Shown here in pieces: positions 1 to 29,823 of a stretch of 29,866 nt of DNA; the first letter of the stretch is position 1, and every line of letters begins with the position of its first letter. The translations under genes and the position numbers were made by a program. Under the pieces are notes generated by a model. That model made no database searches. It had not been told where the DNA came from and saw only the letters and a program-made list of their open reading frames with translations. Source of the DNA: Priapulus caudatus (Eukaryota > Priapulida > Priapulimorpha > Priapulimorphida > Priapulidae); contig NW_014577763.1 of the NCBI RefSeq assembly GCF_000485595.1, positions 124,159-154,024 of the forward strand, in the 5' to 3' direction.

Positions 1-425
1 CGCATGCTGCGCGCTACAATGACACGTTCGTTACAATGTCCTGCAACGAGTGACAGATGTAGACACGGGACGGTGACTGCTGCTAACGCGTGCTGCGCGC
101 TACAATGACACGTTCGTTACAATGTCCTGCAACGAGTGACAGATGTAGACACGGGACGGTGACTGCTGCTGCTAACGCGTGCTGCGCGCTACAATGACAC
201 GTTCGTTACGATGTCCTGCAACGAGCGACAGATGTAGACACGGGACGGTGACTGCTGCTGCTAACGCGTGCTGCGCGCTACAATGACACGTTCGTTACGA
301 TGTCCTGCAACGAGCGACAGATGTAGACACGGGACGGTGACTGCTGCTGCTGACGCATGCTGCGCGCTACAATGACACGTTCGTCACGATGTCCTGCAAC
401 CAGTGACAGATGTAGACACGGGACT
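1..425 (-). repeat. 89-bp minisatellite (~4.8 copies) containing the next DPYD exon's 3' splice site
   Basis: Units start at 1, 87, 176, 265 and 354; the first is 86 bp and the next three 89 bp, with a partial fifth. On the minus strand each unit contains ctcgttgcag|GACAT(C/T)GTAACG and then bases encoding DIVTNVS, or a close variant. These are the residues that follow the DK of the exon at 705-920 in the family. Each unit then runs into a stop (Leu-stop), so the true exon start must lie further left. Candidate acceptors fall before 40, 126, 215, 304 and 393. Confidence 0.9.
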
Positions 426-704
426 ATAGGTTACTCCGATTGGGTAAAATGGCTAGCTATAATTTTATCATGATTAAATTATTACTACCGTGATTAAAAT
501 AATTTATCCACGGTTAAATAATGTGTAACAAGGCCTCAGATCGAGTAAAAGGGCTATAATTTTACCGCGGTAAAAATAATTAAAACCCACAATAGAAATA
601 ATTATTTTGACTGATGGCCAACCACAGACGCCGCGGTGACCGCGCGCCGGCGGGGGTGACCTCGCGACGGCCGGGGTGACCTCGCGACCTCGCGGTGACC
701 TCAC

Positions 705-920
705 CTTATCGAGCGCGAACGTCTTTGTGACGGCGAATCCCCAGCCGAGCTCGAATCCCCGGCGGATCATCGTCGCAGCCGTCGTCGGGGGCGCGCTGGC
801 GAGGCCAAACGGGTTCTCAAACCTCAGTCCGCACATCTCGACGCTTAGATCGACCCGGTCGATCGGTGTGTACATGTTCGGCAGGCTGGGTTCTCCCGGC
901 ACGGGCAGGCCGTGCAGCGA
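705..920 (-). CDS. DPYD: DPYD exon: entry into the FMN-binding barrel
   Basis: This 216-nt exon of 72 codons, phase 0 at both ends, contains [20 protein letters not shown], then [20 protein letters not shown], then [16 protein letters not shown]. It matches family [27 protein letters not shown]...[22 protein letters not shown]. The Lys of TKTF contacts FMN in the family. The acceptor is atatcacag|TCG and the donor is GATAAG|gtgagg. The acceptor with about 20 flanking bases is duplicated at 993-1015. Intact. Confidence 0.97.
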
Positions 921-1015
921 CTGTGATATAGATATAGATATAGACATAGACATAGATATAGATATAAAAATAGACGCGCTATTAGATACACAGGCAGGCC
1001 GTGCAGCGACTGTGA
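904..1015 (-). repeat. Duplicated 3' splice site of the 705-920 exon, with GATATA microsatellite
   Basis: The 23-bp sequence at 904-926, which contains the real acceptor and the exon's first codons, recurs at 993-1015, 89 bp upstream in transcript direction. Between the copies is a GATATA/GACATA microsatellite (about 926-972). The second copy gives a pyrimidine-rich decoy, tccctcacag|TCGCTGCACGG. Confidence 0.85.
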
Positions 1016-1047
1016 GGGAGACGAAGATATAGATACAGATATAGATA

Positions 1048-1368
1048 CAGAGACTCCCCGACTTATGAACAGGTTCAGTTCCGAGCGGTCGTTCGTAAGT
1101 CGATTTCTTCGTAAGTAGAACATATGTACAGACGTATACAGTATTGTACAGTAGTGTAGTATATGTGGAGCACGTGCACACGTGTGATCGATGCCACTAG
1201 AGTAACATGCTATTGTTTACATCTCGACGCTTCCCGCGCTACATTGCTGCCATCACGCAGCGGATCTGCGAACTAAACCTTACGCATACATTTTTTTCGA
1301 CTTCAGGGCAAATTGTTCGTGTCATCGAAAGTTCGTAACTCGAATGTTTGTAAGTCGGGGAGTCTCTG
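1048..1368. mobile_element. MITE with mariner-like ends, TA target duplication
   Basis: Terminal inverted repeats of about 22 bp (cagagactccccgactta...) are flanked by TA on both sides. The element is 321 bp with no coding capacity. The ends and TA duplication fit a Tc1/mariner-derived MITE. It sits in the microsatellite of the intron between the exons at 1625-1809 and 705-920. Confidence 0.8.
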
Positions 1369-1419
1369 TATAGAAATAGATATAGACATAGACATATATA
1401 TATATATATAGCCGACATC

Positions 1420-1638
1420 CACCCACCCCCGCATGTACCTGCAGGTACTTGTCACCCACCCGCACGTACCTGCAGGTACTTGTCACCCACCGGCACATAC
1501 CTCCAGGTACTTGTCACCCAACGGCACATACCTCCAGGTACTTGTCACCCACCCGCACGTACCTACAGGTGCTTGTCACCCACCGGCACTTACCTGCAGG
1601 TACTTGTCACCCACCGGCACGTACCTGCAGATACTTGT
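1420..1638 (-). repeat. 31-bp minisatellite, 7 copies, unit spans a DPYD 5' splice site
   Basis: Seven 31-bp units run from 1420 to the exon itself. On the minus strand each reads acaag(t/c)acctgcag|gtacgtg with small changes, copying the last ~14 nt of the 1625-1809 exon and the start of its intron. The copy next to the real donor reads CAG|gtaagt (after 1594), a better consensus than the real CAG|gtacgt. Use of any decoy adds a multiple of 31 nt and meets an early TGA. Confidence 0.93.
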
Positions 1639-1809
1639 GCATGTTCCACGCAGCCGTCTTGCCGTCGTTGACCGACTCGACGGTTGTCTGGGCGACGCCT
1701 GCGATGTCGCCGCCGCAGTACACGTCCGCCTCGCTCGTCTGCATCGTCGTCTGCTCCACGGCCGGCAGTCCCCAGCGATCAAACTTCAGCGGACTCATCG
1801 CCCGTTTCA
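1625..1809 (-). CDS. DPYD: DPYD exon: FAD-binding [13 protein letters not shown] segment
   Basis: This 185-nt exon encodes [20 protein letters not shown], then [20 protein letters not shown], then [21 protein letters not shown]. The GGD and TVESVNDGK motifs contribute to FAD binding in the family and are nearly invariant. The acceptor is tctcggcag|TG, completing a Val codon. The donor is CTGCAG|gtacgtg (phase 0). The last exon bases plus the donor are the unit of the 31-bp array at 1420-1638. Intact. Confidence 0.97.
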
Positions 1810-1967
1810 CTGCCGAGAAAAGACGATCGCGTGATTTTGTATGAAAGATGCGTGATTTCGCAGGAAAGAGGCGTGATTTCGTAGGAGAAATCTCTAGAAA
1901 AGAGAATTTAGAAAGAGAAATCTCTATCGCAAATGTGTGCGTGGAGCGAGACGCCACAACCGTTATA

Positions 1968-2169
1968 TACTGTAAAGTGACTTATTTTCGTGGGTTCCAA
2001 TTTTCGTGGTTTCAATAAAAAATACATGTTCTTAAATTCGTGGCCTCCACTCCGGAACCGGCAATTGACATACGTACATAATATTTCATTGGGAACATAA
2101 ATTCGTGGATTGATGGACCCACGAAATCCACGAAAATTAGAACGCCACAAAAAAAAGGATTTTACAGTA
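1968..2169. mobile_element. Short TIR element (TACTGTAAA ends)
   Basis: The ends read tactgtaaa and tttacagta, with internal repeats of ttcgtgg / ccacgaa in inverted order. Elements of this look are common in marine invertebrate genomes. About 202 bp, no coding capacity. It lies in the intron between the exons at 2209-2362 and 1625-1809. That intron also has a ~20-bp x3 repeat at about 1838-1893. Confidence 0.6.
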
Positions 2170-2208
2170 TGCGTGAGGTCGGGCGAGATGCCAGGAAGAT
2201 TCTCTTAC

Positions 2209-2362
2209 CGTTGTCGTCGGAGAGACCGGAGCCGAAAGCAGAGATGATGTAGTTGGCCTTGAGACGGATCGACTGCTCAGGGTCGGGCGACCAGCTGCCG
2301 TCGTCTGCCTGCTCGTTCCTCAGGAACTCCATGCCACTGATCTTCTCTCCATTCTTCAGCAC
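2209..2362 (-). CDS. DPYD: DPYD exon (VLKNGEKISGMEFLRNEQAD)
   Basis: This 154-nt exon encodes VLKNGEKISGMEFLRNEQAD, then DGSWSPDPEQSIRLKANYII, then SAFGSGLSDDN. It matches family [20 protein letters not shown]...LKADVVISAFGSVLSD. The acceptor is gttcttctcag|GTG and the donor is AACG|gtaaga. The acceptor is copied about 475 bp upstream, beyond the 18-bp array at 2376-2835. Intact. Confidence 0.96.
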
Positions 2363-2375
2363 CTGAGAAGAACAC

Positions 2376-2835
2376 ACAGCATGTTCACGGCACACGGATG
2401 TTCACGACACGCGGCATGTTCACGGCACACGGCATGTTCACATCACGCGGCATGTTCACGGCACGCGACATGTTCGCGGCGCGCGGCATGTTCACATCAC
2501 GCGGCATGTTCACGGCACGCGACATGTTCACGGCACGCGGCATGTTCGCGGCACGCGGCATGTTCGCGGCACGCGGCATGTTCGCGGCACGCGACATGTT
2601 CGCGGCACGCGACATGTTCGCGGCACGCGGCATGTTCGCGGCACGCGGCATGTTCGCGGCACGCGGCATGTTCGCGGCACGCGACATGTTCGCGACACGC
2701 AGCATGTTCGCGGCACGCGGCATGTTCACGGCACGCAGCATGTTTGCGGCACGCGGCATGTTCACGGCACGCGACATGCTCGCGGCACGCGGCATGTTCG
2801 TGGCGCGCGGCATGTTCACGGCAAGCTGCACGTTC
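2376..2835. repeat. 18-bp minisatellite (~25 copies) bracketed by copies of a DPYD acceptor
   Basis: The unit is gcatgttcgcggcacgcg with A/G and C/T variants. Because 18 is a multiple of three and the unit lacks stops in most frames, several overlapping frames stay open on both strands. These are not genes. The array starts ~14 nt upstream of the acceptor at 2363 and ends at a second copy of that acceptor (gttcttctcag|gtg, before 2837). Confidence 0.9.
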
Positions 2836-3312
2836 ACCTGAGAAGAACCCGCGGCCATGTTTGTCTTTCATTTCGCCTTCCATCACTTCTATTTATTTCT
2901 TCTTATATCTTCTCTTTCTTTTATTTATTTATTCTTATTTAAATTCATTTGCTTTAATTTTATTAGCACTGTCTATTTACTAATACGTTACCTCCAAAAT
3001 GCAATTCATAAGTGTAAATAAAAGTAAATTGAATTGCTTGTACAGAACGCGGAATGTTCCGCCGACGCAGACACTCGCACGTAAAGACCAGCCGCGATCT
3101 AATGATGACGGCAAATGTGTTTTACGACGAATGCATTTATTTACCCTGTCAGCGGCGACGGTTATTGAAGTGGTAAATAAATGGATTCACAACGAAATGT
3201 ACGAATGTAGAGGACAGGAAAAATACGGACAAGGAAAAACACACATGACAAAAAGGGAAAAACAAAAACATAGCAATAAACAAATGCCTTTAAAATATAA
3301 TAACTGTTTTAC

Positions 3313-3369
3313 CTTGTTTGGGCACATGAATGGTAGGAACTCACACATCTCCTCTCTTGCCAACTCCAT
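3313..3369 (-). CDS. DPYD: DPYD micro-exon ([19 protein letters not shown])
   Basis: This 57-nt phase-0 exon of 19 codons reads [19 protein letters not shown] and matches family MELAKEEKCEFLPFLSPRK. The acceptor is tttatccag|ATG and the donor is AAG|gtaaaac. The Met follows directly on RAVPEE of the previous exon, as in the family. It is internal and not a start codon. Intact. Confidence 0.95.
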
Positions 3370-3471
3370 CTGGATAAAACAGCACACCGTTAGCAACGTA
3401 CGTGACACTCTGGACGCATTACATGTAAAAAATAAGGGGTGTATAAACGGGCAGAAAATGTATATACTTCT

Positions 3472-3540
3472 CGTAATTCTCTTTGGAATACGATAGTAAT
3501 TCTCTTTGGAATACGATAGTAATTCTCTTTGGAATACGAC
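3472..3540 (-). repeat. 23-bp tandem repeat x3 just inside a DPYD intron
   Basis: The minus-strand unit is gtattccaaagagaattacta, three near-identical copies starting about 25 nt after the donor of the 3562-3734 exon. The bases ctacgtcgtattcc before the array resemble exon bases gtacgtcgtgttcc (YVVF), so a local exon-derived origin is possible. The donor itself is not repeated. Confidence 0.75.
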
Positions 3541-3561
3541 GTAGATCGCAGCGCCACCTAC

Positions 3562-3734
3562 CTCCTCGGGCACAGCGCGTATGTTGGTGAATCCGCGGCG
3601 GAACACGACGTACACGCGGCGGGCGCCGCATCGCAGCGCGGAGGTCGCGCAGTCGAACGCTGTGTCGCCGGCCCCCAGCACGATCACGACGCCCCCACAC
3701 ATGTCCGGCAGACGCGACTTGCACGCGCACATGC
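3562..3734 (-). CDS. DPYD: DPYD exon: NADPH-binding dinucleotide fold
   Basis: This 173-nt exon encodes [20 protein letters not shown], then [20 protein letters not shown], then [17 protein letters not shown]. The [10 protein letters not shown] glycine motif starts the NADPH-binding Rossmann fold, and this is the best conserved visible segment. The acceptor is catccgcag|GC and the donor is GAGGAG|gtaggt (phase 0). Just inside the downstream intron is a 23-bp x3 tandem repeat (about 3472-3540). A decayed copy of this exon's first bases and acceptor lies at about 4593-4640. Confidence 0.97.
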
Positions 3735-4147
3735 CTGCGGATGACACGTGTGAGGCGATCGATACATGTTAAAGTGATTACGTCACCGTAAATAGTAAAA
3801 GTAAAAAAAAACTATGTCCACTTTTTCACAAAATGTAAGTGATTCTGTTCACTTTTTATGGTTAAATTGCTGCATTATACTTCCTATTTTGCTATTCCGT
3901 TCAATGTGAATAAAACACTCGTGACTCATACATAGCCCAAAGCAAGCATGTAATGTCATAATAAATATATCAAATCGTCCAGGGTTTTTGGATTTTTAAC
4001 TAGGTGAGAAACAATCTTATCAGGGTAAGAATTCGAGGATACATTTAGTCCCGTAAGTACTCACTTTTCATGTAAAAAAATTGCAACAACATTTTTTACA
4101 AATATACACCATAGAAAATTCGCGACATAGTCAATTTACACGAAGGC

Positions 4148-4830
4148 TGGGACCGCTCAAAGTGGCTCAGAACCACTACCCCATTCAGATTTTACAATTA
4201 AATTAGAAGCAATTAAACATTTCAGATTCAATTCCAATTCTGAGTGGCTCGGAACCACTACCACATTCAGATTTTACAATTAAATTAGAAGCAATTAAAC
4301 ATTTCAGATTCAATTTCACGGGGTAGTGGTTCTGAGCCCCTCAAAAATTCAGATTTTATAATTAAATTGGAAACAATTAAACATTTTACCTGTTTAGATT
4401 TAACCGGTTTATTATTCGATATCGGCAAAGTTAGTGATAAACTACTAGTTTTGTCTAGAGCGCTCCAAGTAGCTCAGAGTCTCACTATATTACCCCATTT
4501 ACATTCAACCGGTTTATTATTCGAGGTCAGTATATAGTATACAGTCAAGTTGTCAAATATTCAACAAAGCGATAAACTATACTAGTTATGAGGCAGCCGG
4601 CACTTGCGCGCGCACATGACTGCAGGAGACATGTCTGGGGATGGATACCGGTCTACTACGAGAGCTAGAGCCGCTTCAAGGGGTACATGCAGTGCCACTA
4701 TATGCTCACTGAGATTGACCTGGTTTATTATTCGACGTCATTAAAATTATAAATGCGTTTCGCTAAAGCGATAAACTACTAGTTTCATCTAGACTGATCC
4801 AGGGGGCTCCAAGTGATAAACTACTAAATT
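4148..4830. repeat. Diverged tandem repeats in the intron between the 5165-5272 and 3562-3734 exons
   Basis: A ~90-bp unit (attcagattttacaattaaa...) occurs three times at about 4190-4385, with the flank gctcagaaccactacccc also present inverted. A second family (ccggtttattattcg ... gcgataaactactagttt) occurs about three times at 4400-4790. One of its intervals contains the decayed exon copy at about 4593-4640. The remaining ~380 bp on the 3' side (3770-4147) show nothing recognisable. Confidence 0.65.
4593..4640 (-). pseudogene. Decayed duplicate of a DPYD exon start with its acceptor
   Basis: The minus strand reads gtctcctgcag|TCATGTGCGCGCG and on to CAAGTGCCGGCTGCC. This resembles the real acceptor and first ~28 nt of the 3562-3734 exon (catccgcag|GCATGTGCGCGTG...CAAGTCGCGTCTGCC). 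Similarity continues ~30 nt into the intron. It is too diverged and too short to be an alternative exon, and lies ~870 bp upstream of the genuine one. Confidence 0.7.
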
Positions 4831-5164
4831 CATATAACTGTACCCTTCATTAGGCACTACTTTTAATGCTGTAAAGCTGAAAAGTAGCTTATATTTGACA
4901 GTTCCCCTCTCTCTTACTTATATATGTTTCCAGGCAGCTAGCCAAGGATCGCTGAAACACGTGGGCACCTCATGCGCCGAATACCAACACAAAACTTCAG
5001 TAGACTCCAACGCCGCTTGTACTTGAAATGTAAAGTCCTCCTATTTTTCCTAGTTCCCTATATAGTTAACTTAGTTCCTAAGTTCCCTAGATTTCCTATT
5101 AGAGCCGCCTAAATAAGGATGCGACCAGCGAGGATTTGATGCGACCAGGGAGATGCCATGATAC

Positions 5165-5272
5165 CTGGCTTGCTCGCTGCCGCAACCCTGGGTAGAAAGC
5201 TCTTAGACGTCCAGAATCCTCGTTCCTCCGTGAGTCCGTCAAACAGTGGAATGGTCTTCGACTCAGGTAGAC
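5165..5272 (-). CDS. DPYD: DPYD exon (LPESKTIPLFDGLTEERGFW)
   Basis: This 108-nt exon encodes LPESKTIPLFDGLTEERGFW then TSKSFLPRVAAASKP. It matches family sequence [37 protein letters not shown]. The acceptor is cacgcag|GT and the donor is CCAG|gtatca. The final G completes a Gly codon with GC of the next exon (PG-MCACK). Intact. The ~385 bases upstream hold a MITE (5350-5571). Confidence 0.95.
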
Positions 5273-5349
5273 CTGCGTGAAACGCGGCGCGCCGTCGGTG
5301 ATCAGATACGGTCGTGTACGTAAACGAACCGCTCGTTAGCACTGATTAA

Positions 5350-5571
5350 AGCTGGGTTTACAATTACACTATATCAACTTTTCAACTAATCGAACGAAAG
5401 TCCGGAGTGTAAACATAGAAACAAACGTAGAACCTCTGATAGAAAGATTGATAGAACATTGAAAAGTATAAATTAATACTTTTTAAAATAAAAAAGTAAT
5501 TAAAAAAAGTAATAAAAGTAATTAAAAGCATTAAAAAAATACGTGAACTTTTCGATAGTGTAAACCCAGCA
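5350..5571. mobile_element. Short TIR element (GCTGGGTTTACA ends)
   Basis: Inverted ends gctgggtttaca / tgtaaacccagc, with further matching bases inside (acactat / atagtgt), enclose an AT-rich interior. About 222 bp, non-coding. No clear target duplication. It occupies most of the intron between the exons at 5658-5742 and 5165-5272. Confidence 0.65.
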
Positions 5572-5657
5572 CAACTGTTATTCCTGTATTATTTTGTTTG
5601 AGAGCGAGCAATGTGTAAGGACATCTATGTACCCGCAGACACGTCGAGCTTAATTAC

Positions 5658-5742
5658 CTATCCCAATATAGATCGCTTCATTTCCTGCTTTTCTCAGGGA
5701 CTCTATGCTTAAGCCATTGCCCAGTGCCTTCCCAAACTCAAC
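5658..5742 (-). CDS. DPYD: DPYD exon (VEFGKALGNGLSIESLRKAG)
   Basis: This 85-nt exon, 28 codons plus one base, reads VEFGKALGNGLSIESLRKAG then NEAIYIGI. It corresponds to family sequence [32 protein letters not shown]. The acceptor is attgcag|GTTGAG and the donor is ATAG|gtaatt. The split Gly codon joins in phase to GTCTACCTGAG of the next exon. Intact. Confidence 0.94.
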
Positions 5743-5913
5743 CTGCAATTAAAAAAGATTGTTCCGATCTCGTCCATGCTAGTGCATGCAAAACCCACCC
5801 CTCTGTTTAGGGCGAGTCACCGATTTTCTGATAAGGAAGGATACAACGACTACCATCATGCATTTATGATTGTGAGAAGGGATAGAACACGCAGCATATG
5901 ATACGTTACTAAT

Positions 5914-6134
5914 GCTGAAGGAGTCGTTGTCGTATCAGGTACTACATATATGTACCCGAGGACCCCGAGGTACATATATGTACTCACGAAGTGTACCAGA
6001 CTTGTACTACAGAAGTGTACCCTAACCCTAACCCTAAACATACCTCATATAAAAATATAAACATAATACTAAACAACATAAAACTACCTCGGGTACATAT
6101 ATTTAGTACCTGATACGACAACGACCCTTCGTGC
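5914..6134. mobile_element. TIR element with internal (CCCTAA)3, 9-10-bp target duplication
   Basis: Inverted ends of about 45 bp share gtcgttgtcgtatcaggtac and then atatatgtacccgagg. The flanks repeat gttactaat (5905-5913 and 6135-6143; a matching c extends it to 10 bp if the right end is 6133). A ~9-bp duplication is typical of Mutator-like elements. The centre holds ccctaaccctaaccctaa at 6020-6037. It lies in the intron between the exons at 6292-6373 and 5658-5742. Confidence 0.8.
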
Positions 6135-6291
6135 GTTACTAATCCATCATCTGGTTTTCATATTTTGCTGAAGAAATAGTTTATAATGGTTTCAACCTCG
6201 TCTCACGGACATTCCGGTGCAGGGCACCCACCCTGAATTCGTCTTTACTCTACGTAACCTTGTGTTAGTTCTGTGAAGTTTCTTGTTTTAC

Positions 6292-6373
6292 CTTGACTCC
6301 TAGGTCTCTCATCATGTCCACCTCAAACTCCACCACATCATACGGAAGTCTGTATGATGGAATCTCTGAAGAG
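6292..6373 (-). CDS. DPYD: DPYD exon ([20 protein letters not shown])
   Basis: This 82-nt exon starts one base before TCT TCA GAG and contains [20 protein letters not shown] followed by MRDLGVK. It matches the family segment [28 protein letters not shown]. The acceptor is ccttcag|C; an alternative AG lies 7 nt further in. The donor is AAG|gtaaaac, phase 0. The segment belongs to the FAD-binding domain. It is intact, with no array at either junction. Confidence 0.94.
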
Positions 6374-6679
6374 CTGAAGGACACATTGTATTCGATGTCA
6401 GTTTTATTACAAAGCAAGATCGTGTAAAGGCATTTAGTTTTTTAATTATCTAATTTGGCCAATAATGAATCTCGATAGAATTACATTCACTTTACTTAAT
6501 GCCGTGTTACAGAAACTAGAATAGTAAAAGTCATAAGTTAGGTTGCCGAACATCCAATTTCACTTCACAACTGTGTACGCTAAGACACCCATGCACTTAT
6601 TCGAAAAGACTGCCCTGCACCTGATCTACATGCAAGAGTCACATAGCCATAGCCATGCCCTCTTTAAATAGCATTGCTA

Positions 6680-6960
6680 GATCACTTCAACCTCTCTACA
6701 CGCACGCACACCTAAACGTCGACTTTTCGGCACTTTGTTACTATAAACATAGAGTTTAGAACATCCTGTGGAGACGCTGATTGGCTAGAACTGCCTATCA
6801 ATCTCACTGGCTGGCCAATTCAACCTCTCTACACGCACGCACACTAAAACGTCTACTTTTCAGCACTTCATTACTAAGCATCAACTTTAGAACATCCTGT
6901 GGAGACGCTGATTGGCTATAGCTGCATATCAATCACGCTTGGTGATCCGATTCGACACCT
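6680..6960. repeat. 133-bp direct duplication in a DPYD intron
   Basis: Two copies begin at about 6687 and 6820 (tcaacctctctacacgcacg) and run through agaacatcctgtggagacgc. They differ by scattered substitutions. No gene content. They lie next to the 20-bp array in the same intron (6374-7470). Confidence 0.8.
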
Positions 6961-7490
6961 CTCGATGTAACAACGTACCTGAGACCGTAACAACGTACCT
7001 GAGACCGTAACAACATACCTGAGACCGTAACAACGTACCTGAGACCGTAACAACGTACCTGAGACCGTAACAACGTACCTGAGACCGTAACAACGTACCT
7101 GAGACCGTAACAACGTACCTGGTACGTTGTTACGGTCTCAGGTACGTTGTTACGGTCTCAGGTACGTTGTTACGGTCTCAGGTACGTTGTTACGGTCTCA
7201 TACCTGCACGTGAGACCGTAACAACGTACCTGAGACCGTAACAACGTACCTGAGACCGTAACAACGTATTTGAGCCCTTAACAACGTACCCGAGACCGTA
7301 ACAACATACCTGAAACCGTAACAACGTACCTGAGACCGCCCACGTACCCGAGACCCGTAACAACTACCTGAGACCTTAACAATTAACGTAACCCAGAACC
7401 GAACAACGTACCTAGACCGTAACAACGTACTGAGACCTAACAACAGCTACCTGAAACCGGTAACCACGACCTGAGACCCCGCCCAACGTA
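6961..7490 (-). repeat. 20-bp minisatellite (>20 copies) of a DPYD 5' splice site, with an inverted block
   Basis: The minus-strand unit is ggtctcag|gtacgttgttac, that is, the last bases of the 7471-7649 exon plus the intron start. Eight clean copies fill 6967-7120, four inverted copies 7121-7200, and about a dozen copies with many indels 7211-7490 next to the exon. Copies at 7040-7119 and 7121-7200 form a perfect palindrome with 80-bp arms and one central base. Most copies keep a good donor, CAG|gtacgt. Confidence 0.92.
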
Positions 7491-7649
7491 CTCTGTTCTC
7501 GTACACGTCCAATCTTGTAGCCGACGAGCGAGAATGTCGCACAGCTGATGCGGCTGTCCCGCACCGATAAGGCACACTCTTGCCGAAGTAGCTCTCTCGG
7601 AGATCCGCGGCAATTCGGGATTCGCTAATCTGTGGCACCTTCATCGCCC
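7471..7649 (-). CDS. DPYD: DPYD exon: start of FAD-binding domain, frame broken by indels
   Basis: After acceptor gtttcag|GGGCG the exon opens with AMKVPQISESR and LRESYFGKS, matching the family segment AMxxPQI...ESYxAKI. The following GAGPAxISCATFLARLGY-like FAD dinucleotide motif is recognisable only by switching frames several times; then comes DVYE- and EYVGG-like sequence. The exon is about 11 nt shorter than the human equivalent. It ends in GGTCTCAG|gt, whose last two bases join in phase with the next exon (Ser codon). Neighbouring exons are intact, so consensus error is more likely than gene decay. The GGTCTCAG|gtacgt junction is the unit of the array at 6967-7490. Confidence 0.8.
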
Positions 7650-7765
7650 CTGAAACATCATTGGTTGAATTAAAGCGAGCGAGATAGAATCTAAGGTAGT
7701 AGGCAGCATCTTTTGCACATCTGAGTATAAAAAGTGCGTGGATACAAACCCAAGATATTCAGCAG

Positions 7766-7915
7766 CAGTTTGCCTGCCCATCACCTGCCATAATCAGTTT
7801 GCTGCCCATACTGCCATAATGGTCAGTTTGCTGCCCATACTGCCATAATGGTCAGTTTGCTACCCATACTGCCATAATGGTTCCCTTTCGCTGCATAATG
7901 GTCCAGTTATGCTGC
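7766..7915. repeat. 29-bp tandem repeat (~4 copies) in a DPYD intron
   Basis: The unit is ctgcccatactgccataatggtcagtttg. The middle copies are exact and the outer ones have indels. It does not contain either splice site of its intron (7650-9075). Confidence 0.8.
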
Positions 7916-9060
7916 TTGCTCTAGCCGTCCGCGCTTACTTCTGCCTACCCAACTCACCCTAATAAACCATAGATCATCGCTAAAAGTTACACGCGATTCT
8001 GCTAACAAGTGCCGCAGAGCGAAACAGGCTTCAATCTGACGTGTACTGTAGCCGCGTATTCTCTGATAAACTCATTGGCCAACAGAATCAATGCCCCTCA
8101 AACGCACCGCGTCGCCTCAGAGCATATATCTAAGATACTACTAAACAGATCTAAAATCTATATAGGCTTATGCAGTATCTTAGTAATCTTGTAACTTTAA
8201 TGACTCGCTATACTACCATGTTATCAAGAATATGCGTCGAGCGCGAGTGTATGGTTGGTGGGGGAGTGCATGAGGTCTCCCACAGCAAAACAGTTCAGTC
8301 ATTTGTTAACAGCAACAAAATCCATAGTAAACCATCCTCTTGAGGTAAAAAGTGTTATCAAGACACTTACTCTTTCGCATGCCAGTTCGAAGAACATTCA
8401 TATTCCTTCAAATAAAGTGATAAAAATGGTAGTCAGCGCGAAACAAAGTTTTTGCACCCGGTCAGCTTAGACCCATGTCCGCAGAAAAGTCTGATATCTG
8501 ACCTCCCCACTGCCCTTGACCCTGTACCATCCAATTCCGCAGCTGGTGAATGTCCTTAAGTTAAGGGGAAAATTTCCTCTCAAATTGACACCTCTTGCAT
8601 TTGGCCCCCAAATTCGCCATGCGATCCTTTTCGCGATCCCCCAACGTCCCGAATACCAAACCATTACGATCACTTAAAGATTGCCATAAGACTGTTGACG
8701 ACGCCACGCTTACTCAGCCACGCACTGCACGGATGCACTGACGGACATTCAATAGCTATTCTACAATCTAATCTGACATCGTCAGCTGAGCTAAAAACAA
8801 CGGCGCAGTTGGTTCAGGGTGTGGTTAAAAAGAATCAATTGACTTATTAACTGTTGGACCGGCACATTCGAGTCGAAACGTGGGTTAAGTATCATTGACA
8901 AATAGAATTAACCGAATAGGGAAACAGTTAGGGCTAACGAACCAACTCCAGCTCTGAATCTGAACCACCCTAATGTCTCTACTATCCATCACTAGCACGA
9001 GGAGATCAGTGATGAGGTAACCGCTGAATCCTACCAGCCTCAGATAACAAGGCATGTATA
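7916..9060. other. DPYD intron, no recognised feature
   Basis: About 1.15 kb between the 29-bp array and the exon at 9076-9234. Short open frames occur on both strands (61-113 codons), but none has recognisable protein sequence or exon-like ends. No DPYD residues appear to be missing between the flanking exons. Confidence 0.6.
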
Positions 9061-9075
9061 GTGAACGGAACTCAC

Positions 9076-9234
9076 GCTCGGTACAAATGCTGCAGGCCCC
9101 GATTGATTGCCCTTCTCGATGCAAATACATTCAGCCTCCGACGCAAGGTCACTTTGTAGGACACACCATTCCGCAGGTGAGACCCGTGCGTGTTGTCCGA
9201 GAAGATCGTCTTCTGCGACCCAATAGTAAGTTTT
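9076..9234 (-). CDS. DPYD: DPYD exon: Fe-S region, frame broken by indels
   Basis: The exon begins after acceptor ttctcag|AAAACTTACTATT. Fragments of the expected protein appear in alternating frames: TYY near the start, TCGMVCPTSDL, then the region expected to read CVGGCN, then GLQHL. No single frame is open across it. The indels fall largely in short homopolymers, as in uncorrected long reads. The 3' end is uncertain: a consensus donor (gtgagt) lies after 9076, but a few more codons may belong to the exon. The segment supplies further Fe-S ligands in the family. It is flanked on the upstream side by a noisy array that also contains this acceptor. Confidence 0.8.
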
Positions 9235-9600
9235 CTGAGAAGTCAGACGATGTATGTCAAGGAGGGTAACGGATAATAGTTCTGAGAAGATCGGCGATTG
9301 TAATGCAAAGGAGGGTAACGATAAGTACGGTGTCAAGTCAGACGATGTCAAGTCAGGAGGGTACGGATAAGTAGCTGTCAAGGTCAGATAATGTATTCAA
9401 GGAGGACGATAATAGCGGTGTAAATGTCAGACGATTAGCAAGGAGGTACGGGATAAGTAGGTGTCAAGTCAGACGATGTAATGTCAAGCATGGTACGGAT
9501 AATAGCTTGTCAAAGTCAGAATAATTATGTCCAAGATGGGGTAACGGATAAGTAGCGTGTCAAGGTCAGATAATTATGTCAAGGAGGTTACGAAATAGTA
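9235..9600 (-). repeat. Noisy ~46-bp minisatellite upstream of, and including, a DPYD acceptor
   Basis: The plus-strand unit resembles ggtaacggataagtag...gtcaagtcagacgatgtatgtcaaggag, about 7-8 copies with frequent small indels. On the minus strand the two copies nearest the exon both carry cttctcag|AA..ACT(TA)TATT, the acceptor of the 9076-9234 exon. More distant copies keep gacag|ctacttatcc. The high indel rate matches that of the adjacent exon. Confidence 0.8.
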
Positions 9601-9659
9601 GGCATGTGCGCGAGCGACCACCCGCGCGCACGACGCTGATACGTCTGAATATCAATGTT

Positions 9660-9765
9660 CACTCACCTTTTTGGTTTAGATCCCTTGTTGGTCAGATTTA
9701 CCTTGTTGGACGTAATTACCTGTGGGGTAGATTTACCTTGTTGGGGTAGATTTACCTTGTTGGTA
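9660..9765 (-). repeat. ~19-bp minisatellite (4-5 copies) of a DPYD 5' splice site
   Basis: On the minus strand, starting from the end of the 9756-9843 exon, the sequence (c)caacaag|gtaaatctacc recurs four times, plus a degenerate acag|gtaatta copy. Each repeats the last bases of the exon and its donor. With the array at 9235-9600 it fills most of this 521-bp intron. Confidence 0.85.
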
Positions 9766-9843
9766 ATCTGTTGTATGAACATCTTTATATCCAGCTGGGT
9801 TGGGCAACTCTTCTGGCAGGGGGCATCTGCACACTTCAGGCAT
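9756..9843 (-). CDS. DPYD: DPYD exon: N-terminal Fe-S cysteine motif
   Basis: This 88-nt exon reads [20 protein letters not shown] then MFIQQITNK (29 codons plus one leading base). The cysteines of [14 protein letters not shown] are ligands of the two N-terminal [4Fe-4S] clusters in the family (about residues 79-91). The acceptor is ttcgttag|A, which completes an Arg codon. The donor is AACAAG|gtaaat, and that donor is repeated downstream in an array. The exon is intact, with no indels. Homology ends just upstream of the acceptor, which supports this boundary. Confidence 0.93.
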
Positions 9844-13755: not shown

Positions 13756-14387
13756 ATAATATTATGGGATCTTCGGGACGTGAAACGTACTTTCATTAAT
13801 TAATCACCTTATTTGAATAAGAATTCTACACGGAAAAAAAAGGTTACAACCACGTGTCATTGCACTTTCTAATCTTCTACCATAAATTATGGCAAGGTCC
13901 ATTGAGTTTCTGATGTGTTATCATACAGCTCCTGTAAACTGCTGTGTATAGCCTTCACTCAAGCTTTAACTTGTGCTCAACGATTACATAACACTACATA
14001 CAAATATACGACCCTTCATAAACAGCAAGGGCCGGTCATATCCCTTTGGTCATATAACCATGCAGACACTTTGAACTTTTAAATTTAAAACAGAAACCAG
14101 ATTCAGACAGGCAGTGCCTAAAAATGCCCTAAATGTAACCATAAAAGGATATATGGATTTGTGCACTGATTCCAATTTCCACAACAATAACTTACATGAA
14201 CTCTTACATTTGTCATTTTATAATAATTTTTACCCTTAACGCTGCACACGCAAAAATTGGTTTATATTTGTATTTCTCAATGTTTGTTCATGTGTTCAAG
14301 TACATCGAACAATCAATCTCATCACCTGATCAATTGACCTGACAACAAGACTGTAAATTTACAGCTATCAGTATCACTGTGGCTGAG
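13756..14387. other. AT-rich sequence, nothing recognised
   Basis: Roughly 630 bp without gene-like frames, inverted ends or tandem structure that I can support. Confidence 0.5.
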
Positions 14388-14676
14388 AGGGTCTATGTCC
14401 CCCCGGGTACTGCCGGAACGTACCCTGGGTACGGTCCGGTATACCGAAACGTACCCTGGTACTATCTAATATGCCAGACCGTACCTCGCCTACTCCACTA
14501 ACGAGTCTAGGGAGTTGCCTAAGCCTACTCTCTAACCCTAACCCTAACCCTAACTCTAACCCTAACCCAAACCCTAATCCTAACCCTAACCATATCAAAT
14601 AGTTACCAGGGTACGTTCCGGTATACCGGACCGTACCCAGGGTACGTTCCGGCAGTACCCTGGGGGACATAGACCC
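14388..14676. mobile_element. TIR element with internal (CCCTAA)n, copy 1
   Basis: The ends read gggtctatgtcccc / ggggacatagaccc, followed inside by gtactgccggaacgtaccctgg and its inverse. The centre (about 14531-14592) is ccctaa-type repeat with a few variants. It lies in the opposite orientation to the copies at 22595-22804 and 29631-29823. Confidence 0.85.
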
Positions 14677-14679
14677 TAT

Positions 14680-15073
14680 AGCCGGTCGTAGAATACCGTA
14701 TAGACCAATCCGCGGCAGCAGCCTGGTCGGGCTAAGTGTGGGGAGCAAATCCGGGTTTTAAATCTCGGGATGCTAAGGCTTAGGATTAGGATTAGGTTTC
14801 CAAACTAGCAATAGCTTAGAGTTGTGCCCCTGAATCAGTTGTTCTGTCGCGCAGAAACTGTGGCCAGCACACGGCTCCGGATCTACAAGTTGTAAATTTG
14901 TCGAGAGTGTGTGTTTGATAGTTCATAAGGCTGTGAATCGTGCTGTGTATGTGTGACATCCTATGACATGCGTGTGACATTATGTGTGACATAATTTACT
15001 AAGTGTGTGAATGTGTGTTGTCATGCTGTGACCATATCATAATGTTGACCATATAGCTGTATGACATATTATA
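14680..15073. other. Repeat fragment and TG-rich sequence before the gap
   Basis: Bases 14690-14735 (gaataccgtatagaccaatc ... gcctggtcgggcta) match a second locus near 26785-26827. The rest is rich in tgtgtgacat-type motifs (about 14900-15010). No gene. Confidence 0.5.
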
Positions 15074-19199: not shown

Positions 19200-20930
19200 T
19201 GCACACTATGGGACAAGAAATAAACAGAAAGGAAATTTATCAACGCCTACTCTAACCAAGGCCAACCTAGATCACGTACCAGTACATCAGCGTGGAGCTC
19301 TAGAGGAGCTATTAATGCAAAATAGTGACTTGTTTGCTGAAAGCAACGTGACCTAGGACGTACCAACCTGGTAAATATGACAATAGACACCGAATGACAC
19401 CCACCTATACGACAAAAGCCATATCGAACACCGATTAATTATCGACCTATGATTGATCATCATGTGAATCAGCTATTAGAAGCCAAGATAATAGAACCTA
19501 GCAATAGCCCGTGGGCAAGTCCAGCCTTCATCGTTCTCAAGAAAGATGAACCTGAAGGACGAATGGTCATAGACTACAGGAAGCTTAACAAGGTCACAAG
19601 GAAGGACACATATCCATTACCCTGTATACAAGATATCCTTGGATCGTTAGGAAACTCACGTTTCTATTCAACTCTTGACCTAAAGGCGGGCTACTTCCAA
19701 ATAGCAATGGCAGAGGAGGACAAAGCCAAGACTTGTTTTATCACCTACAGAGGTGCATTCCAGCCGAATGTCCTTTCGTTCGGCTTGTCGAGTGCACCTA
19801 GCATTTATCAAAGATTATTAGATACCGTATTAAATGGATTACATCACAAGTGTGCCATTCCATACATAGATGACATAATCATTTTCAGCCAAACCTTCGA
19901 ACAACACCTATTAGACATCGAAGTGGTTTTTGACAGGTTACGCGATGCAGGGCTCAAGCTTAAAGCTTCAAAGTGTGAATTCCTCAAAGACAAGGTTAAT
20001 TATTTAGGACACATTGTCTCACCCCAGGGCATAGCCCCTGACCCAAAGAAAATCGAGGTAGTCAAACAGCTTAAAGACCCTAAAAACGGTCAAAGAAGTA
20101 CGACCATTCTTGGGCATGGCAACCTATTACCGGGCACACACTAAGTCATTTGCAAACATTGCAAAACCACTAACAGCATTAACACACAAATACGCCAAAT
20201 TCGAATAGAACAATGACGCAGAACACGCGTTTCAGACCCTAAAGCAGAAACTCACCAAAGCCCCAATCTTAGCATATCCGGACCCTACCAAGAGCTACCG
20301 TCTATTCACAGACGCCTCATCATACGCAGTAGGAGCCGCTCTTACACAAATAAACGACGAAGGAAACGAGGTCGTTATATCATACATCAGTCATCAGTTA
20401 AACGAAGGACAAATGCGTTGGCCAGTCATAGAAAGAGCAGCATATGCCATCGTCTATGGTCTACAGAAGTTGCGTCATTAGCTGGCCGGGGCGAAGTTTG
20501 TCATCGTTAGCGATCATAAACCACTACAATATCTGCTAACGAGCCCAAATCTTAAGAATGCTCGACTTCAGCGATGGGCATTAGTCATTTCGGAACACAA
20601 TGCGACAGTTGAGTATCGCTGTGGCCTAGCCCACAGAAATGCAGACGCATTATAATTTGTCACGAATCAAAACTAAAAGTGATCCCACACCAGAGGTAGA
20701 AATCCAACAAATCACCGATGAGCCAGGACCTAATACAAGTGCAAACGAGGACACACAGGTCAAACAGCCTGATACTACAGAGGTAGTTATTCAAGAGGTG
20801 CCGGAGGAGCACACAGAGCGACAAGAAGAACGGTCTTCAATTAATCATTCAGTATTAAATCTAACAGGAGTCAAAAAGGAGCAACGAGTAGACACCCAAC
20901 TGCAGAACATTATACGGGCCCTTGTGCCAA
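19200..20930 (+). pseudogene. Gypsy/Ty3 pol fragment: reverse transcriptase and RNase H, broken
   Basis: The frame at 19449-20144 has the RT order expected for Gypsy: IIEPSNSPWASPAFIVLKK, MVIDYRKLNKVTRKDTYPLP, FYSTLDLKAGYFQI, FGLSSAP, then PYIDDIIIFS (the catalytic YxDD box), and NYLGHIVSPQGI. A frameshift near 20090 leads to the tether and RNase H region (YPDPTKSYRLFTDASSYAVG, VSDHKPLQYLL), which has at least two in-frame stops. Past the RNase H end another frame gives a charged linker to 20930, where the element is cut before the integrase. Upstream (19200-19448) the pol N-terminal region is also interrupted. Not functional. Confidence 0.9.
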
Positions 20931-22594: not shown

Positions 22595-22804
22595 AGTGTC
22601 TATGTCCCCCAGAGTACTGCCGGAACGTACCCTGGTAACTATTTGATATGGTTAGGGTTAGGGTTAGGGTACGGGTTAGGGTTAGGGTTAGGGAGTAGGC
22701 GTAGGCAACTACTTAGACTCGTTAGTGGAGTAGGCGAGGTACGGTCCGGCATATTAGATAGTACCAGGGTACGTTCCGGCAGTACCCTGGGGGACATAGA
22801 CCCT
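22595..22804. mobile_element. TIR element with internal (TTAGGG)n, copy 2
   Basis: Ends tgtctatgtcccc / ggggacatagacc with the gccggaacgtaccctgg inner arms. A (ttaggg)n block lies at about 22651-22692. The translated repeat gives a meaningless Gly-Leu run. Confidence 0.85.
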
Positions 22805-23020: not shown

Positions 23021-25985
23021 CAGTGCTCGAAATAAGAAAAAAAATGTGGTTGTCCAATCGGGTTGTCCGCAACAATTTCTGGTTGTCTCAAAAAAATTCC
23101 CCCAAATCTCCTATTTTCAATCACATAATAATATGGTCAGAAAACACCCAAAAACAGTGATGTAGCCAGGATTTTTTAACAAGGGTGGCCAAAAACAGCA
23201 AACTGCGCAAAATAGTGGATGACTTAATACTTTAATGGCTCCTCCGTCTCCCTCTCCACATCCTTAGTAACGGCTCCTCTACCTTCTCTGCAATCTTTGT
23301 TTTGGGTGCCATGCGAAAAGGCGACATTTTTGTTCATTGTTCTCTGCTCCCAAGATATGTAATTGTTCAGTGGCGGAAGTAGGCTATTGACGAGGTCTGG
23401 CCCACTGAGCAGAACGTTGTTAAGCGAGACTCCTCTGAACTGACAACTAGAGTCAAACACTACTCGGATTTTGTTTGGTTTCTTTGGGTGATACACCCCA
23501 AAGTGTGCCAAGTACCAGAATTCCTCTTCACGTTCGGGTCTGGTGGCTATCTCCGCATGTCCTTTGACAAAAAGATCCTGCATGAAGGTGACGTAGTGAT
23601 TTTTCTTCACTGGGTTCTGATTCAGAGAGCGCTTCAAACTCATCAGTCGTCTGTAAGCCGCCTCCCTGTTGTCGGGTAACGCCTGCCTCGGCACCTTGAA
23701 AGGCAGTGGGGCTGTCCAGCTGTTTGAACCATCCACGTACATCTCCTTATCCATAATAGCGAGAAACTTTCTATCATCTACGGAGAACCCCGCTCTGTTG
23801 TCGCTTTTGGTTTGTTTGAATACAGACTGTCCAATACCGTCCTCAAACCTACCATTTGCAAAGAATCCCTTCCTGACCTGGGAATCTGATTTCTCATGGC
23901 TTAGTGATAAGTTTGTGCCGTCGCCATCATCTAGTTCGACTGAATCAAGCCCGTCCACATATCTCACATCTCTGGGGTTGACTTCCCTTAGCAAAAACTT
24001 ATTCGGACAGGGCTGGAAGCACGATGTCCTCCCGTTGGCGTGTACAAACGTTTTGTATGTGCCCACCTGGTCAGGTATGTGTACTCCGTTGAGACACACA
24101 TCACCAATAATAACCCAACCCAGGTCTAGTCTTTGGGCAAATGGTAAATTCCCGGGTCCATTTCGCTGCTCCCGGACCTTGTGCACCTGCAGAACATCTC
24201 GGCCAAGTAACATCAAGATCTGAGCCTGCTTGTCAACATCAGGAACGTAGTCGGCAATTGATCGCAAATGAGCGTAGTGTCTTGCCACATCTGATGTCGG
24301 GATTTCAGAGCGATTGTTGGGAATGTCACTACACTCGATCAAGGTCGGTAGCGGAATTTTCACTTTCCCATCTAAGCTCTCGATAGTCAGATCTTTAGCT
24401 CTTCTTCCCTGAGTCTGTACTAGACCAGAGCATGTTCTGAGAGAGTAGGGACTGGAATTGCCCTTCAAATGTAACTCCTCAAAGATTTCGGGTCTGACTA
24501 GGGACCTGTTGCTTTGGTCGTCCAGCAGTGCGTACACTCTCTTCGCTAACTGTGGCTTTCCCAAAGGATATACGTTCACAAGAACGATCTTGGTACAGGA
24601 CTTCCCTAAACTTTTACTGTCTCCGCAGATTTCAGTGCATGTAGTCGATACACTGCTACTGGGCATATTCGAAGGTCTGTCTTCCCTGACATGCTTGCCT
24701 TCAGTTTGCTCCCCGCCATGCTGCGCAGGGGCATGGGATTTCCCTCGATCGACATGGAGGGCTGTAGCATGACGATCACTGCCACATTCGAGGCACCTTG
24801 CTTTCAACGTACAGTTTTTGGATACGTGTTTGGTGGACGCGAGGCATCTGAAGCACAGTTTCAAGTCTTTGAGAATGTTCAACCGTTCATCTAAGGGCTT
24901 CTCCCGGAATGATCGACATTTATGAAGAGGGTGAGGACTTTTGTGAATCGGACATTCTCCCACCTGGTCATGCGAGTTCTTACTATTGTCGACTTCAGTC
25001 TTTCTCGCGACTACCTTGTCGTTGGTTCTCCTGGTTCTAGATTCGGTCGTTAACGGAAAACTTGGATCGTTCCACTCGTCCGCCATCTTGCGGACGAACG
25101 TCGAAAAGAATTCGAACGGAGGGAATGCGACATCGTACTTGTCCTTGTACTCTCTTCCTCTTGTTCTCCACTTGGTTTGGAGACCGAATGGGAGTTTCTG
25201 AACAAAGTCATTGATCCCTAGATGCGTGTCTAGATAGCATAGACCAGGGAGTTCGCCCTTTGCAGCTTTCAGCATGTACAGAAGATCACTGAATTCCCTT
25301 AGCTGGCAATTTTCTTGGTTACCGATCTTCGGGAAGGCCTTAACCTTGCCCAACAGTGCGTCGGTGACCACTTCTGGCCTCCCATAGCTTTCATCCAATC
25401 GCTCCCATGCCTCTTGCAAACCGAGCGCTGGATCATGAACATTCACGGAACGAATCTTTGTTACGATTTCATGTGATCTCCTGTTTGTCCATTTTACGAG
25501 TAGATCTAGCTCCTCTGCGGGGGTAACATGTGTGTGTTTAATTGTGTTCTGAAAACTTAGCTTCCACGCTCTGTAATTCTCAGGACGCTCATCAAATTGT
25601 GTTAAACCCTGCACGACAAGATCCTTACGCGTGAAATACTCAAATAGACCTTTGACACCTGCCGTATCTGATGACATCTCGCTGCGTTGCTGCAGAGTAG
25701 CTTGTTGGGGCGGGTCAAGGTGCCACCTCTCATAAATCAGAAAACCTGACATATACCAGTGTTGGAAATAGCAGCTGGTATGCGTCGCTTTCCCACACCA
25801 TAGATTAATGGCGGGCTGCCAGGCTATAAGTGCTCTTGGAGAACCCAAGAAAATCATAAATAAAGTGCGTTTTTTCGTCAATTTTTTTCTTGGTTGTCCA
25901 CCGGACAATGTCTCAGACTGGTTAGGTTGTCCGGCACAAATTCTGGTTGTCTCGGACAACCGGACAACGCTTATTTTGAGCACTG
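23021..25985. mobile_element. CAGTG-ended DNA transposon (hAT-like) carrying a BEL/Pao fragment
   Basis: Inverted ends are cagtgctc(g/a)aaataag, 16 bp, flanked by tagtt at 23016-23020 and 25986-25990. The empty site at 15270 confirms the limits. Both subterminal regions carry several ggttgtcc / ggacaacc motifs in both directions, which look like transposase-binding repeats. No transposase is seen; nearly the whole interior is a BEL/Pao frame. A 5-bp duplication is known for some hAT groups, so the superfamily is inferred. Confidence 0.85.
23224..25677 (-). CDS. BEL/Pao retrotransposon gag-protease-partial RT, open reading frame
   Basis: This 817-codon open frame starts MSSDTAGVKGLFEYF. It shows, in order: a DUF1759-type gag (FDERPENYRAWKLSFQNTIK near residue 30 to about 190); Cys-His knuckles (CPIHKSPHPLHKC, CFRCLASTKHVSKNC, CLECGSDRH, about 250-330); a DUF1758 aspartyl protease core (ALLDDQSNRSLV); and the first part of a reverse transcriptase (KPNKIRVVFDSSCQFRG). 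The frame then leaves the family and stops at 23224, before the RT catalytic box. RNase H and integrase are absent and no LTR was found. The frame also extends 102 codons upstream to 25983, but that part translates transposon end sequence, so I chose the internal Met. That it is intact suggests recent origin or selection. Confidence 0.88.
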   Translation of the reverse strand: MSSDTAGVKGLFEYFTRKDLVVQGLTQFDERPENYRAWKLSFQNTIKHTHVTPAEELDLLVKWTNRRSHEIVTKIRSVNVHDPALGLQEAWERLDESYGRPEVVTDALLGKVKAFPKIGNQENCQLREFSDLLYMLKAAKGELPGLCYLDTHLGINDFVQKLPFGLQTKWRTRGREYKDKYDVAFPPFEFFSTFVRKMADEWNDPSFPLTTESRTRRTNDKVVARKTEVDNSKNSHDQVGECPIHKSPHPLHKCRSFREKPLDERLNILKDLKLCFRCLASTKHVSKNCTLKARCLECGSDRHATALHVDRGKSHAPAQHGGEQTEGKHVREDRPSNMPSSSVSTTCTEICGDSKSLGKSCTKIVLVNVYPLGKPQLAKRVYALLDDQSNRSLVRPEIFEELHLKGNSSPYSLRTCSGLVQTQGRRAKDLTIESLDGKVKIPLPTLIECSDIPNNRSEIPTSDVARHYAHLRSIADYVPDVDKQAQILMLLGRDVLQVHKVREQRNGPGNLPFAQRLDLGWVIIGDVCLNGVHIPDQVGTYKTFVHANGRTSCFQPCPNKFLLREVNPRDVRYVDGLDSVELDDGDGTNLSLSHEKSDSQVRKGFFANGRFEDGIGQSVFKQTKSDNRAGFSVDDRKFLAIMDKEMYVDGSNSWTAPLPFKVPRQALPDNREAAYRRLMSLKRSLNQNPVKKNHYVTFMQDLFVKGHAEIATRPEREEEFWYLAHFGVYHPKKPNKIRVVFDSSCQFRGVSLNNVLLSGPDLVNSLLPPLNNYISWEQRTMNKNVAFSHGTQNKDCREGRGAVTKDVERETEEPLKY

Positions 25986-26029
25986 TAGTTACATCCCCAG
26001 AACGTTACAAAAAACTTTTCGGAACGTTA

Positions 26030-29565: not shown

Positions 29566-29630
29566 TTTGTGCTAACAATGGATTACGATACGTACCGGTA
29601 TTTATCTATAAACTAATAGTATAGCTCATA

Positions 29631-29823
29631 GGGTCTATGTCCCCCAGGGTACTGCCGAAACGTACCCTGGGTACGATCCGGTATACCGGAACGTACCCTG
29701 GTAACTATTTGATATGGTTAGGGTTAGGGTTAGGCTTAGGGTTAGGGTTAGGGAGTAGGCGTAGGCGACTCCCTAGACTCGTTAGTGGAGTAGGCGAGGT
29801 ACGGTCCGGCATATTAGATAGTA
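29631..29823. mobile_element. TIR element with internal (TTAGGG)n, copy 3, right end missing
   Basis: Left end gggtctatgtcccc and a (ttaggg)n block at about 29716-29751, then the same aggcgaggtacggtccggca sequence as copy 2. It departs from the family at about 29823, just where the right inverted arm should begin. Confidence 0.85.

Follow-up and report, generated by a model that had tools for sequence, protein, structure and literature searches.

Repeats across exon-intron borders of DPYD in Priapulus caudatus, most likely mirage minisatellites outside lancelets

How do splice sites of a single gene come to be repeated inside its own introns? The question is raised by the DPYD gene of Priapulus caudatus, in which short units made of exon and intron bases recur beside several junctions. 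The window, i.e., the whole analysed stretch of 29,866 nucleotides (G000:C703:124159-154024), forms the final 30 kb of a contig of 154 kb; the assembly has 385 Mb. The part of DPYD lying in it occupies 705-9843 of the minus strand and holds exons K to A. The gene was identified from nine exons joined in translation and extended by seven residues from the start of the next exon; this sequence matched pig DPYD (1h7x) at E 1.4e-165. The best protein match was 69% (Glandiceps), Branchiostoma was named in 0 among the 120 matches listed, and the query was placed weakly in the tree. Exon borders were set by reading frame, DPYD homology, and GT/AG sites, as follows.

9843-9756, minus strand, exon A
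about 9233-9075, minus strand, exon B, noisy sequence
7649-7471, minus strand, exon C, noisy sequence
6365-6292, minus strand, exon D
5742-5658, minus strand, exon E
5272-5165, minus strand, exon F
3734-3562, minus strand, exon G
3369-3313, minus strand, exon H
2362-2209, minus strand, exon I
1809-1625, minus strand, exon J
920-705, minus strand, exon K

A run of 15,718 N adjoins window base 1 on the left, and beyond it lie exons L, M, N, and O, of which exon L (DIVTNVSPRIV) begins at -15766. The exon search beyond the left edge of the window found no exon between M and N and none after O.

A sequence-only reading had reported that three donors and five acceptors of this gene are copied into the adjacent introns. 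All three donors (9756, 7471, and 1625) were confirmed by alignment or TRF. The arrays across them are listed below, where a slash marks the exon-intron border.

9683..9763, minus strand, 18-19-bp unit in 4.5 copies (AACAAG/GTAAATCTACC) across donor A at 9756, from TRF and copy alignment
6967..7478, minus strand, 20-bp unit in 25 copies by TRF (GGTCTCAG/GTACGTTGTTAC) across donor C at 7471, partly noisy and with an inverted block
1424..1638, minus strand, 31-bp unit in 7 copies across donor J, true border 1625, from TRF and copy alignment

The unit at donor J holds ACAAGTACCTGCAG/GTACGTGC, and five more copies follow the true site at a spacing of 31 bp, from 1594 to 1470. These copies differ from it by 4-6 mismatches per 32 bases. 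Further copies of donor A were located at 9737 and 9702. Outside the window, donor O has a single copy 1087 bp downstream.

The acceptors gave a more graded picture. The following features were found ahead of the exons.

1..424, minus strand, 89-bp unit in 4.8 copies with the acceptor and the initial ~20 bases of exon L, which itself lies at -15766 past the N gap
994..1024, minus strand, extra exon K acceptor with its boundary at 1010, found 89 bp upstream from the true one
2379..2846, minus strand, 18-bp array of 25.4 copies (2379-2835) between the true exon I acceptor and its copy (boundary 2837), from TRF and alignment
4601..4640, minus strand, one diverged copy of the exon G acceptor (true site 3734), boundary 4620, 7/32 mismatches
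9233..9588, minus strand, degenerate array of 46-49 bp ahead of exon B, from TRF, the acceptor copy itself unconfirmed

Two of the five reported acceptors are clear, i.e., that of the first exon beyond the left edge (L) and that at 920 (K). Five 89-bp units in 1-424 hold TTGCAG/GACAT, and exon L itself, past the N gap, is preceded by the same unit. Acceptor K has one extra copy, in which 16/16 compared exon bases are identical. The acceptor at 3734 has its one diverged copy, and that at 2362 a copy past the 18-bp array that shares GTTCTTCTCAG and only the GTG of the exon. The fifth, at 9233/9234, failed to be confirmed: no copy with ≤4 edits in 20 nt was found there, in sequence rich in frame errors, and TRF reports a 49-bp unit in 1.9 copies. 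Acceptor O, which lies outside the window, has four more copies at a spacing of ~51 bp.

L005 holds exon I a second time, with 93% identity over 305 bp. The 18-bp array adjoining this copy has 5.6 copies compared with 25.4 in the window, and the two may not be allelic. The second exon I copy with its own array, and further repeats of window 2398-2966, some inverted and some direct, lie at L005 974-3242 and 8610-8805. The region may have been duplicated locally, or it may be a second haplotype put in the wrong place.

Arrays of this kind could also be assembly artefacts, made when short-read contigs were joined and gaps were filled with raw long reads. Indels are indeed frequent in exons B and C and in the arrays nearby (about 7.2-9.7 kb), an inverted block lies within the 20-bp array, and the N gaps are large. 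However, the J, K, L, and O arrays are in clean sequence, and 6/24 junctions remain copied when the noisy exons A-C are left out. The divergence of the J copies from the true site, the presence of the 89-bp unit on either side of the N gap, and the recurrence of the 18-bp array next to the second exon I copy also speak against an artefact, which we consider quite improbable. As an observation on its own, the stretch at 7200-9700 looks like unpolished long-read gap filling when set beside the clean exons D to K.

To measure the frequency of junction copies, a 20-nt sequence with the junction in its middle was taken for all 30 DPYD junctions, a copy being a match with ≤3 edits within 1.5 kb. Close copies were found at 8/30 junctions, i.e., donors A, C, J, and O and acceptors G, K, L, and O, and at 9/30 with ≤4 edits. 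By the ≤3-edit rule, a copy was present for 19.8% of the 3131 intron sites and for 1.4% of the 361 exon sites of DPYD, and shuffled sites had one in 0.9% of 334 cases at ≤4 edits. The junction copies thus exceed chance when compared with exon and shuffled sites.

Whether junctions exceed the introns around them depends on the null model. The first null was the raw per-site repeat density near each junction. By this measure, repeat density within 600 bp was flat with distance from the junction, junctions were repeated no more than intron sites, and DPYD with the chaperonin genes showed no excess (13/82 junctions against 12.2 expected). This null was abandoned as too lenient, because an array that expands locally adds one count with every copy. 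In the second null, distinct intron sites were counted, each repeated site being weighted by one over its copies. The switch turned the lack of excess in DPYD into an excess, i.e., 8/30 against 1.4 expected (p about 0.0001), which is to be weighed knowing that DPYD was picked for study because it looked extreme. With chaperonin added, the count was 13/82 against 3.4 (p < 0.0001). The distinct-site count can serve as a null model for genome-wide testing of a junction-linked mechanism.

Other genes were surveyed in the same assembly. The chaperonin set used 40 of 47 PF00118 matches and the myosin sets 51 of 88 PF00063 matches, junctions under score limits being excluded. Under the distinct-site null, chaperonin had copies at 5/52 junctions against 2.0 expected, which is borderline (p 0.05). 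The first myosin set had 0/39 against 0.5 and the second 1/22 against 1.2. Chaperonin and the first myosin set together gave 5/91 against 2.5 (p 0.11), compared with which the 8/30 of DPYD is unusual (Fisher p 0.003), as the sequence-only reading had held for so many copies in one gene. All genes not chosen for the trait gave 6/113 against 3.7 (Poisson p about 0.16, computed by hand), a sample still compatible with a two- to threefold junction preference and in which two of the six positive junctions (C497 and C91) are doubtful.

Some individual cases were clear. On contig C1279, an acceptor in noisy sequence has seven near copies within 1.5 kb, of which three were displayed in ungapped form. 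Donor copies lie 773 to 1219 bp into an intron of C185, and a CCT4 acceptor of C552 has one copy 120 bp away. The CCT4 protein joined from four exons of C552 showed no difference over 475 residues from 'T-complex protein 1 subunit delta-like [Priapulus caudatus]', which confirms three intron calls, one of them with the copied acceptor. By this identity and the DPYD matches listed above, amphioxus was rejected as the source. On C198, a myosin donor recurs once, at a distance of 197 bp, together with roughly 65 nt of exon. This downstream copy (L049, reverse strand) shows a few differences from the exon end, all synonymous by eye. Junction copies thus occur at scattered places in the genome, with DPYD as a hotspot.

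The same reading had suggested a mechanism tied to splice junctions. Junctions might be preferred starting points of duplication, e.g., through AGGT microhomology or breaks tied to transcription or splicing, and the distinct-site excesses in DPYD, in chaperonin, and in both together point this way. However, DPYD was selected as an extreme case, the chaperonin and first myosin sets together and the second myosin set show no significant excess, and raw density shows no excess, so we regard such a preference as unlikely. The suggestion gains no support from the genes not chosen for the trait, while DPYD by itself exceeds the distinct-site null; a strong general preference is unsupported, and a modest one is possible. 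That junctions in some Priapulus genes are true hotspots of tandem duplication, through transcription, splicing, or proto-splice motifs, is unlikely; if it were true, such hotspots would form a standing supply of spare splice sites for new introns or exons.

Most of the junction copies are probably explained, with a probability of about two in three, by neutral and ordinary tandem duplication in a gene prone to minisatellites, such events being tolerated at exon-intron borders too. Minisatellites would arise in such a repeat-prone gene by replication slippage or unequal exchange. A duplicated piece that straddles a border would leave one complete exon with an intact junction, and because one intact junction is always left, the duplication may be tolerated like one inside an intron. 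The array would then extend into the intron and take copies of the splice site along, and we infer that splicing takes place at the exon-adjacent copy. Consistent with ordinary duplication, donors and acceptors are both affected, the units are unrelated and measure 18 to 89 bp, the DPYD introns are rich in local repeats whose raw density is flat with distance from the junction, the genes not chosen for the trait lack a significant excess, and junction copies occur in other genes too. The distinct-site excess in DPYD, and in DPYD with chaperonin, stands against it, as does the borderline value of chaperonin by itself.

The strength of the copies was compared by a generic splice-site score, which is silent on which site is used. 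By this score the true donor J had 5.5 and its nearest copy 8.6, and the true acceptor K had 1.1 and the copy 89 bp upstream 4.8. The true acceptor L had 4.1 and its copies 2.3-4.1; for acceptor O the values were 4.2 and 3.0-4.2. At window 907-1024, the true exon K acceptor has a (GATATA)n microsatellite instead of a pyrimidine tract. Copies scoring like true sites could feed the gain of introns and can mislead gene prediction.

Copies that equal or surpass the true site, as at J and K, might be expected if selection maintained them as decoy or spare splice sites regulating DPYD. Against this, translation that continues from the L copy, or that runs past exon J into the J array, ends at a stop within 9 codons. 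In the O array each of the three frames is interrupted by stops, and nothing indicates conservation or use of the copies. Selection for decoys therefore seems highly improbable, and neutral duplication remains the preferred reading.

Tandem repeats of exon-intron boundaries, named 'mirages', are described for amphioxus in passages of two papers (PMC3087553; PMC3902484), where they occur in Adh3, troponin C, the globins BflGb6 and BflGb9, and PGBD5. The unit length is given as 10 to about 160 bp in a passage of the globin paper, which also proposes that mirages may seed new introns (PMC3087553). The sequence-only reading had placed the DPYD repeats in this class, and the placement agrees with those passages, in which units span exon-intron borders. 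In DPYD, units span the boundary in tandem at donors A, C, and J and acceptors L and O, and as single copies at acceptors K and G and donor O; 5' and 3' boundaries are thus both involved, and the unit lengths lie within the reported range. As far as the passages go, the two systems have in common short units of exon and intron bases, 5' and 3' boundaries, and splice signals kept in many copies. They differ in phylum, Priapulus being a priapulid and amphioxus the only source of mirages to date in those passages, and in extent, with 8/30 junctions of one gene in DPYD compared with one or two per gene named for amphioxus. When the host is taken as the place where mirages were found and not as part of their definition, the DPYD arrays, judged from their sequence, are most likely mirage minisatellites outside lancelets. 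A literature search found no report of such minisatellites outside lancelets and no paper combining Priapulus with minisatellite, and the phrase 'mirage minisatellite' was not found in it. The DPYD arrays suggest that mirage minisatellites are no oddity of lancelets and can also arise in distant phyla, in genomes rich in minisatellites.

In Cryptococcus, introns were gained by repeat expansion (PMC2395259). There, as in DPYD, tandem duplication multiplies splice-site sequence inside a gene; Cryptococcus gains whole introns, whereas the DPYD arrays come without an evident gained intron. The 31-bp VNTR of human CBS lies across an exon-intron border as well; it is one locus in one gene. Earthworm metallothionein (PMC12783039) and C. 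elegans minisatellites with splicing (PMC4039745) were set aside as comparisons.

The remainder of the window, a long region upstream of exon A, holds other elements. A Pfam search of eight window translations gave matches for one only, the reverse-transcriptase ORF at 19398-20141 on the plus strand (RVT_1, E 1.2e-33, and a weak Peptidase_M16_C). An ORF of 926 aa without Pfam match lies at 23227-26004 on the minus strand. A dispersed element of ~200 bp with an internal telomere-like CCCTAA/TTAGGG array was found at window 14380-14682, 22674-22770, and 29616-29822, and at L005 8298-8555.
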